Assembly (NCBI RefSeq): GCF_003610465.1
Contig: NZ_RAQI01000002.1
Location: 806,001-870,000 of the forward strand
From: Xenorhabdus ehlersii
GTDB lineage: Bacteria > Pseudomonadota > Gammaproteobacteria > Enterobacterales > Enterobacteriaceae
Length of the DNA stretch: 64,000 bases
Reading direction: 5' to 3'
Numbering within the stretch: the first letter of the stretch is position 1; each line of letters opens with the position of its first letter. Shown here one piece after another: positions 46,772 through 48,962 of this stretch. A model generated the notes under the pieces. The model saw nothing but the letters and a program-made list of their open reading frames with translations, made no database searches and was not told the origin of the DNA. The translations under genes were made by a program, and so were the position numbers.

Positions 46772-47233
46772 CTATATAACAGGGTTATTTTTTTCGATAT
46801 AAAAACGATCCCATGAGAAAGCCTTTCGATTACCTGAGCCTGTCGGCATGTCATTTCGCCTTTCCAATGATGGAACGGTAGTCAGAGCGATACATATGGC
46901 TTGATAAGCTGAATCTGCCGCTGTTAACAACGCATCCGATGGCTGAATAACGTTATCCATGCACATTTGCACCGCTAACTTTAAAGAAACGCCATCATTG
47001 GCCCATGCAGGAATACCTGAATCATCATCCGGCATGGGTTGAACGCCATTGGCAGAGTCAGCAAACAGATATCCAAGTCCAATACCTTTCACTTGCCATT
47101 GTGCCATCATATCTTCTAGATCGCCGATTGAATCCTCGATAGACTGTGGATCAGCATCAGTCAGTGTCGCATCTGAATATAGACCAGCCTTTCGCAATGC
47201 CTTAAGAACTAAATCACCCTTGGTCTTCGCCAT
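46772..47233 (-). CDS. Tail accessory factor, P22 gp4
   Basis: A 153-residue protein that docks under the portal; P22 gp4 (166) also has muramidase activity. The N-terminus TKGDLVLKALRKAGLYSDATLTDADPQSIEDSIGDLEDMMAQW matches gp4 in blocks, and the end has MPTGSGN. Its start overlaps the preceding small gene by 20 bases. Confidence 0.93.
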   Translation of the reverse strand: MAKTKGDLVLKALRKAGLYSDATLTDADPQSIEDSIGDLEDMMAQWQVKGIGLGYLFADSANGVQPMPDDDSGIPAWANDGVSLKLAVQMCMDNVIQPSDALLTAADSAYQAICIALTTVPSLERRNDMPTGSGNRKAFSWDRFYIEKNNPVI

Positions 47234-47399
47234 CTTTTACTGCCTCATTACGCTTGGGTTTTTCTGCGGTTTCGTTTGGATGCTTTACCCACCCCTGTTT
47301 CAAACTGTCTTCAATCTCTTCACTGATCACAACAATGTAATCCAGTGAATAAGAACCGCAGGTGATCATTGTGCCCTGTTTATACAGCATGGTTTTCAT
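47214..47399 (-). CDS. Small phage protein between coat and gp4
   Basis: A 61-residue protein (MLYKQGTMITCGSYSLDYIVV...) of a type often found between coat and gp4 genes of P22-like phages. It has a compact beta-rich start and a charged, Lys/Glu-rich tail. ATG 47399 follows GGGGTGA. Role unknown; probably a virion or assembly factor because of its fixed position. Confidence 0.7.
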   Translation of the reverse strand: MKTMLYKQGTMITCGSYSLDYIVVISEEIEDSLKQGWVKHPNETAEKPKRNEAVKDGEDQG

Positions 47400-47402
47400 G
47401 TA

Positions 47403-47666
47403 TCACCCCAAGATAACCCAATCATTAGCTAAGAGATCTGTTTGACTAGCAAGCCATCCCACCACTAACTTGTTATCAGCAGTTTTCATGCAGATGGAAT
47501 CAACAAAGGATGGTTCGCCAACATATTCCCCATAACCATACTTAAGTCCCCTTTGTAATTCCGTTCCTTTAATTAAGTACAGGAACATCCCCTTTCCATT
47601 CCAACCATTACGGGCGATAGGTTTACCTTGTTTCAGGGCGTCTAATGCTGCACTAAATGTCATCAT
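47403..47666 (-). CDS. DUF2829 protein, Tad2-like anti-Thoeris sponge candidate
   Basis: An 87-residue protein with the full DUF2829 pattern: TFSAALDALKQGKPIARNGWNGKGMFLYLI, then an internal loop, then MKTADNKLVVGWLASQTDLLANDWVI. DUF2829 includes Tad2, a phage protein that tetramerises and sequesters the cyclic ADP-ribose messenger of Thoeris TIR defence. I start at ATG 47666, which has GGAG eight bases upstream; the longer frame to 47696 swallows that site. It sits between coat and the small gp4-proximal gene, an odd place for an anti-defence gene, and would be expressed late unless a local promoter exists. Activity is inferred from the family. Confidence 0.85.
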   Translation of the reverse strand: MMTFSAALDALKQGKPIARNGWNGKGMFLYLIKGTELQRGLKYGYGEYVGEPSFVDSICMKTADNKLVVGWLASQTDLLANDWVILG

Positions 47667-47708
47667 TGTCATTTCTCCAAAATTAGAAAGGGGCATAAGC
47701 CCCTCAGA

Positions 47709-48962
47709 TTACTGTCCTGCAATCACTAACCCGACATACTCAGGAACCAGTACAGAACAACCATACAGCGTGGTAAAGCGGGTTGTCGTTACGCCTTTGA
47801 TATGGTCAAAGAAGTAAGACATGATCAATGTTGCGCCTTGTTCAGTGGTGGCTGTCATCACCTGTGGGCCTTGTCCGGTAGGGAATGCCAATTTCCCGTA
47901 CATCAATTCGACGGAACCATCAGCCCAGAATAAGTTTGTAGGCGCTGCATTCTTATTAAGAAGAGTGATTGCCGCGCCGTTTGCCGCATTAGTGTTAACG
48001 TTGGCATAAGGCTGGCTGGCAACATCAGCATTATCAGGCGGTAAAATCTGCGGAGAAATAGTCGCCGTAGAGCCACTGATAGCCAGAACGCGGAAAACCT
48101 GTAGCTGATCGGTGGTGTCTTTCGTGATTTGATGCACGGAATACACATCAGCAATCGTGAATGCGTCACCCACCTGCAATCCGGCACCAGATAATGTGAT
48201 CGTACCCTGACGGTTATCAACCGGCATATCGTTAGCATCTTTTGCCACAACCTTGTGTGCTGGAGCCGCTGCCAGAGTTAACGCCTCAGCCGTACCTTTG
48301 GGGACACGCCCTGAGATATCTGTTTTGTAACTGTCAAAGCTGGCAACGGGTGGGATTTGCGCTTTTTCATAAGCCGTCAGCGTTGTGCCCTGCGCATAGG
48401 CACGCATACCCAATTCACCGGCCAGATCTTTGTAGTTGAACGGGTTCCAGAAAGAACGGCGATTGATACCCTGCGGAACACCAATCGCTGTCATGGTGGC
48501 GTCAATGCCTGCCGCACAGTTCCATAAATCACGCCCCTGTCCGCCAGAGGTATTATTCGCCATCGCAATCACATTGGTTGCACGCTGAGTAGCCATCTGG
48601 ATCAGGTCAGAATCAATCTGCGCGGCAAGGCGTTGACCTGCTGCCCTGCCTGCTTCTGTTTTGTGTTCTGGATCACGCATTTCTCGTGCATCCAGCGTGT
48701 ACAGGATGTTCTTGGGTTCTTTGAACACGGAGGGAACGAGGCGCTGAACCAGTGCTGTGGGTTCTTTGCCAGACAGATCTAGCCCCTCCTCCACGTTCAT
48801 ATGATAGTGCTGAGGGCGGTAAATGACATCGCCTGCACGCTGCATAGCGGTATCGCCGGGGCGGAATTTCTTCGCATTACGGGAGACTACGCCAGCGGCT
48901 TCAAAGCCGTCCACGTAGTTTTCAAACATGATTTCTAAGTCTTTTGCTAATTGATTAGCCAT
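47709..48962 (-). CDS. Major capsid (coat) protein, P22 gp5 family
   Basis: A 417-residue HK97-fold coat protein, compared with 430 in P22. Early blocks are MANQLAKDLEIMFENYVDGF and RNAKKFRPGDTAMQRAGDVIYRPQHY. A beta-rich insertion between about residues 225 and 345 corresponds to the I-domain peculiar to P22-like coats (VDNRQGTITLSGAGLQVGDAFTI). The C-terminus ends YGCSVLVPEYVGLVIAGQ. It follows the scaffold gene as in all members. Confidence 0.95.
   Translation of the reverse strand: MANQLAKDLEIMFENYVDGFEAAGVVSRNAKKFRPGDTAMQRAGDVIYRPQHYHMNVEEGLDLSGKEPTALVQRLVPSVFKEPKNILYTLDAREMRDPEHKTEAGRAAGQRLAAQIDSDLIQMATQRATNVIAMANNTSGGQGRDLWNCAAGIDATMTAIGVPQGINRRSFWNPFNYKDLAGELGMRAYAQGTTLTAYEKAQIPPVASFDSYKTDISGRVPKGTAEALTLAAAPAHKVVAKDANDMPVDNRQGTITLSGAGLQVGDAFTIADVYSVHQITKDTTDQLQVFRVLAISGSTATISPQILPPDNADVASQPYANVNTNAANGAAITLLNKNAAPTNLFWADGSVELMYGKLAFPTGQGPQVMTATTEQGATLIMSYFFDHIKGVTTTRFTTLYGCSVLVPEYVGLVIAGQ

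Follow-up and report, generated by a model that had tools for sequence, protein, structure and literature searches.

Tad2 proteins studied so far act as sponges for the signal molecule of a bacterial antiviral defence. What is a gene of this family doing among the genes that build the head of a P22-like phage? The question is raised by a 64,000-nucleotide (nt) stretch of Xenorhabdus ehlersii DNA (contig NZ_RAQI01000002.1, positions 806,001 to 870,000; the whole stretch is called the window), which up to ~36 kb holds ordinary-looking bacterial chromosome open reading frames (ORFs), as judged by eye, and beyond that a P22-like prophage. The gene lies within this prophage, directly behind the coat gene. 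It probably encodes a Tad2 sponge of the type known from phage SPO1, co-transcribed with the late head operon from a reusable accessory slot and predicted to bind glycocyclic ADP-ribose (gcADPR) against type I Thoeris.

The match to PF11195 (Tad2-like) covers residues 2-86 and profile positions 1-73 of 73, with 87.7 bits against a cut-off of 25 (E = 7.7e-25). This is far beyond chance, and the product is a full-length Tad2-like protein, as the first-pass annotation had proposed from a complete DUF2829 / Tad2 family pattern. The structural comparison suggested at that stage gave a confident monomer model (predicted local distance difference test, pLDDT, 91.5) that matches Tad2 structures and has the Tad2 fold. 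The passages on Tad2 in one review (PMC12043709) name the beta1-beta2 loop, the beta3-beta4 loop, beta4, the beta4-alpha3 loop and alpha3 as pocket segments; mapped by eye on the model, 17 of 22 residues over three such stretches are identical to those of SPO1 Tad2. The loop GLKYGYGEYVGEPSF, which had been singled out as unusual and as a possible cause of altered ligand preference, aligns gap-free with the SPO1 Tad2 stretch FGFGFGEYINEPVF; it is SPO1-like and therefore gives no hint of a new ligand. In a tree of 57 rows and 87 columns, in which 23 of 51 inner branches were open and the bootstrap was not fully settled, the window protein falls into a 13-row group with SPO1 Tad2 (support 99/97), with MoTad2, HgmTad2 and SptTad2 outside. 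By its sequence the protein is an SPO1-type Tad2. Its likeliest ligand would be gcADPR, given the kinship with SPO1 Tad2, the partly conserved segments and the missing insertion between beta2 and beta5, which the alignment with HgmTad2 records as a 17-column gap; ligand binding and anti-Thoeris activity are predicted from the family.

The alternative that survives best is that the protein, though a sponge of the Tad2 family, takes up a different messenger: His-ADPR from type II Thoeris or one of the cyclic dinucleotides used by CBASS. The family has members of each kind, and the structure matches include MoTad2 with His-ADPR (9eib) as well as AcrIIA7/HgmTad2 and SptTad2, both with cGG (8kbk, 8wjd); our search of the host genus, given below, covered type I Thoeris markers only. 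However, the beta2-beta5 insertion that is absent here is the one linked to cyclic-dinucleotide binding in the same passages on Tad2 (PMC12043709), SPO1 Tad2, the nearest characterised relative, is described in the relevant part of another study as not binding 3'3'-cGAMP (PMC11722364), and MoTad2 stands outside the SPO1 group and lacks Q75. We consider this alternative unlikely.

The gene and its surroundings are as follows.

47403..47666, minus strand: Tad2-like cargo gene, 87 codons (MMTFSAALDALK...)
47675..47678, minus strand: Shine-Dalgarno-like GGAG, 8 nt 5' of the cargo start codon, read in the sequence
47688..47705, minus strand: terminator-like hairpin in the interval from coat stop to cargo, from fold computation
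47709..48962, minus strand: P22-type coat gene, the upstream neighbour (PF11651, 243.4 bits; phrog_283 major head protein)
47214..47399, minus strand: small ORF of 61 residues, the downstream neighbour (phrog_1175, by phrog match)
46772..47233, minus strand: gp4, tail accessory factor / head-tail adaptor (PF11650, 147.1 bits; phrog_637)

The matches of the neighbours to PF11651, phrog_1175 and PF11650 bear out the position first assigned to the gene, with coat on one side and the small gene preceding gp4 on the other. Its stop codon lies 3 nt from the start of the small ORF, which in turn overlaps gp4 by 20 nt, and its G+C content is 42%, compared with 51% for the coat gene and 44% for the small ORF. 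The longest frame, starting at 47696, was not accepted because this start lies inside the hairpin; the start at 47666, with GGAG 8 nt upstream, was preferred. A virion part with a Tad2-like fold, such as a decoration or neck protein that lies beside the coat gene because it binds the capsid, would also account for this position; we think this quite improbable.

The coat-gp4 interval was measured in 224 rows in which coat and gp4 both lie on the plus strand. By the sequence of the coat end, the slot and the gp4 start, these rows represent 151 distinct operons; they are drawn largely from two scans, of which the best 80 of 195 and the best 80 of 176 matches were taken. In 134 of these 151 operons there was no extra gene, in agreement with the earlier claim that this block normally carries assembly genes only. 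Even the P22-like 720R6, whose coat is 90% identical to that of the window, has no gene there, only 41 nt between coat and small ORF. Alignment of empty and filled sites shows the gene as inserted relative to its relatives, as is expected of a moron. The remaining 17 operons each carry one extra gene. The ORFs in the longer intervals were read first, and motif strings then served to classify the occupants.

4 of 17 filled operons: Tad2
3 of 17: small ORF with a WDGH domain (PF25311) fused in
3 of 17: phrog_419-like protein
6 of 17: 65-70-residue family without clear match, in two forms 44% identical
1 of 17: phrog_796 protein, after the small ORF rather than before it

The insertion proposed by the first-pass annotation is thus real, but it is not alone, as several different inserts occur at the site in related phages: the occupants other than Tad2 are of four kinds, two of which are placed as Tad2 is, between coat and small ORF. 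The WDGH insert in the small ORF (phrog_3769) was scanned in L274 (2951-3520) and L196 (4846-5421) and recognized by motif in L198. The phrog_419-like proteins, of 87-91 residues, come from three type-B operons (L240 4837-5112 and L187 4823-5086, scanned; L212, by motif), and that of L187 shows a weak PGDYG similarity below cut-off. Members of the 65-70-residue family sit between coat and small ORF in six type-B operons (L221 4827-5039, L205 4835-5032 and relatives) and have no Pfam match. In the type-B phages L212, L218, L232 and L238, the small ORF carries a run of Glu-Pro dipeptides of highly variable length.

In its passages on the assembly genes, the epsilon34 genome paper (2008, PMC2629481) describes P22-like phages as having no inserts among them except before the tailspike gene; the same passages report that gene 6 homologues vary in length and that the gene is non-essential in P22. 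Our searches of open-licence literature, which did not cover the two primary Tad2 papers, turned up no account of a coat-gp4 slot or of a Tad2 gene directly following that of the coat. Our survey points to the coat-gp4 interval as a second place for cargo in P22-type phages, besides the one before the tailspike gene: an accessory slot of the head operon in which small units of a ribosome-binding site plus an ORF come and go while the flanking assembly genes stay intact.

Gain and loss at this slot could be followed among eight Xenorhabdus-type operons, with copies counted once; the assignment is by name for L003 and by origin from genomes of the genus for L328 and L376, both added from genome searches, and by coat identity for the others. 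Tad2 was present in five of the eight (the window, equal to L017; L018; L019, as L003; L020; and L328) and absent from L183, L184 and L237; L376, also empty, has the same contig coordinates and small ORF as L237 and was counted with it. The nearest named relative, L003 from Xenorhabdus thuongxuanensis, has a coat 97% and a Tad2 90% identical to those of the window. The coats of the three empty operons share 97-99% identity with the L020 coat, and in the alignment the hairpin is followed directly by the small ORF. When aligned, both the window Tad2 and the L020 Tad2 have the GGAG, and the empty sites are without it.

At the same site, L020 and the window share Tad2 at 83% identity, whereas coat, small ORF and gp4 are only 26%, 34% and 40% identical. 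The synonymous distance between these two Tad2 genes (0.71) is close to that between the coats of the window and L018 (0.81), which argues that the split of the two head modules long predates the sharing of the cargo. On the minus strand of L328, positions 1492-1737 hold a Tad2-like gene only 39% identical to that of the window, in the same coat-gp4 slot of a P22-like prophage of the genus; the L328 coat is 98% identical to that of L020, so that the cargo was either replaced or arrived separately. The starred branches of the tree keep L328, itself on a long branch, apart from the other slot Tad2 proteins; on its own, the tree is not proof that they arose separately.

Of five Tad2 pairs, four gave a ratio of nonsynonymous to synonymous substitution (dN/dS) of 0.09-0.14; the fifth, which is the closest pair and has few changes, gave 0.27, and coat pairs gave 0.03-0.04. 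Judged from these ratios, selection maintains a functional Tad2 protein, with constraint somewhat weaker than on the coat. A neutral hitchhiker at a tolerant site, with no role in late infection, would fit the several unrelated small genes and small-ORF length changes tolerated in the interval, but is hardly credible given these low ratios, the intact reading frames of all five slot Tad2 genes and the finding that operons nearly identical to each other carry two highly divergent Tad2 genes.

A 53-nt piece that includes the window hairpin folds at -14.1 kcal/mol (z = -2.0 versus shuffles), and like hairpins at the same place gave z = -0.65 in the filled type-B L020, -3.06 in the empty type-B L184 and -1.17 in the empty type-A 720R6/L001. 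A hairpin was present in every filled and empty site folded, clearly better than shuffles in some only, and is therefore a feature of the operon rather than of the cargo. A moron usually, though not strictly, has its own expression; a scan for the sigma-70 consensus found no promoter-like site between coat and Tad2; across 2.6 kb it found 3 sites versus a shuffle mean of 4.1, with two minus-strand sites inside the coat gene. Gene order and the lack of above-chance promoter-like sites suggest that Tad2 is made late, with the capsids. In the course of events that we propose, Tad2 would be transcribed with the late head operon through read-through of the hairpin behind the coat gene, would assemble as a tetramer, as expected for Tad2 of the gcADPR-binding type, a homotetramer with two ligand pockets between protomers, and would bind the messenger that the Toll/interleukin-1 receptor (TIR) protein of type I Thoeris produces, a cyclic ADP-ribose that is most likely 1''-3' gcADPR; with the signal bound, ThsA would not be switched on and the burst could be completed.

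The likely target system is present in the host genus, in which a search for Thoeris had been advised. Among 30 Xenorhabdus genomes searched for the type I markers ThsB (PF08937) and STALD/ThsA (PF18185), two (G015 and G033) had both, which makes type I a plausible target. The two genes overlap in G015, where PADLOC identifies the first as ThsA (674.5 bits) and the second about equally as PDC-M50B (196.1) and ThsB (194.8); G033 has the same pair, and each of the two genomes has one further ThsB_TIR match elsewhere. One such complete locus is:

L361, 1468-3527: type I Thoeris locus with both genes, from a genome of Xenorhabdus

Type I Thoeris is the likely target of the window Tad2. Tad2-like matches over cut-off were themselves found in 28 of the 30 genomes (G002-G034), many of them in ORFs of ~230-300 residues, some in tandem arrays (for example L323 182-931, L330 1417-2265, L342 2149-2898 and L354 1844-2530). 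In all four long ORFs scanned, the Tad2-like domain is followed by DUF7823 (PF25136); these long ORFs are a host paralogue family.

Several findings weigh against an SPO1-type sponge directed at type I Thoeris from a reusable slot. Model residues 41-50 are less confident (mean pLDDT 75), the tree rests on 87 columns with many open forks, and a single clade of all five slot Tad2 rows was not rejected (approximately unbiased test, p-AU 0.10). The hairpin behind the coat gene may cut Tad2 expression, so that its dose may be below that of the coat. Thoeris markers occur in only 2 of the 30 genomes, and the profile search found no type I genes in G002 and G006, the genomes with a prophage slot Tad2; since a phage needs its inhibitor in hosts yet to be entered, we take this absence as neutral. 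When the Tad2 sample was widened, just 4 of the 59 neighbours lying upstream matched a major head family, the same number as that of the P22-type coats deliberately included, and a capsid-adjacent place is therefore not a family-wide habit. Of the original interpretation, family, position, absence from most relatives and a plausible target stand, and the distinctive loop does not.

Why the slot should lie behind the coat gene is a separate matter. The passages on Thoeris activation in Roberts et al. (2025, PMC12578639) describe a Staphylococcus system in which 1''-3' gcADPR is produced once the major head protein has bound ThsB1 and recruited ThsB2, and mention that a Streptococcus Thoeris system likewise senses capsid proteins. 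As such capsid-sensing systems exist, a sponge co-transcribed with the coat would suit such a trigger, being matched to it in time. A bolder extension, which we think less likely than not, is that the slot behind the coat is the place of P22-type phages for an answer to coat-sensing defences, that any message yielding enough capsid protein to activate a capsid-sensing Thoeris would yield sponge as well, that different Tad2 genes were selected into it for that reason and that some other slot genes may inhibit capsid-sensing defences as well. The Tad2 genes of SpaA1 and Kapi1, located elsewhere, speak against a general capsid-adjacent rule. The window protein is one more member of a family already described; what is informative is where its gene lies: the coat-gp4 interval yields a short list of small genes to test as anti-defence genes, and with the major capsid protein acting as trigger for some Thoeris systems, according to the same passages (PMC12578639), an inhibitor directly behind the capsid gene makes trigger-matched expression testable by the removal of one gene.

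Among known systems, the ant moron of P22-like phages, as described in part of the epsilon34 paper (PMC2629481), is likewise variable cargo within a late operon; it lies before the tailspike gene, whereas the slot of the window lies between coat and gp4, with no promoter-like site before Tad2. The Escherichia coli P22-like phages Kapi1 and IME10 also carry a Tad2-like domain in a Lederbergvirus late region, but that of Kapi1 is part of a 173-residue, two-domain protein encoded between spanin and terminase genes, and that of IME10 is an unannotated match in a parallel place. Two-domain Tad2 proteins (phrog_872) were also seen in L097 (5776-6297), L100 (4776-5267) and L024 (1612-2100), their N-terminal ~75 residues having no Pfam match. 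A Chromobacterium plasmid prophage encodes a 73% identical relative upstream of its capsid gene, with four genes between. HgmTad2 / AcrIIA7 and SptTad2 (8kbi, 8kbj, 8kbk, 9kzr, 8wjd) share family, fold and an identical GWLASQTD with the window protein, which lacks their beta2-beta5 insertion. The type II Thoeris inhibitor MoTad2 / ModTad2 (8v3e, 9eib) has the same fold and core motif, but is 38% identical, has V instead of Q at position 75 and falls outside the SPO1 group. The nearest characterised relative is SPO1 Tad2 (gp34.65; PDB 8sme, 8smf, 8smg, 8wje), with ~50% identity over residues 2-86, a one-residue gap, the same loop type, the same tree group (99/97) and pocket segments that are largely kept in the window protein; it comes from a phage of another host phylum, whereas the window gene sits in a P22-type head operon, directly behind the coat.
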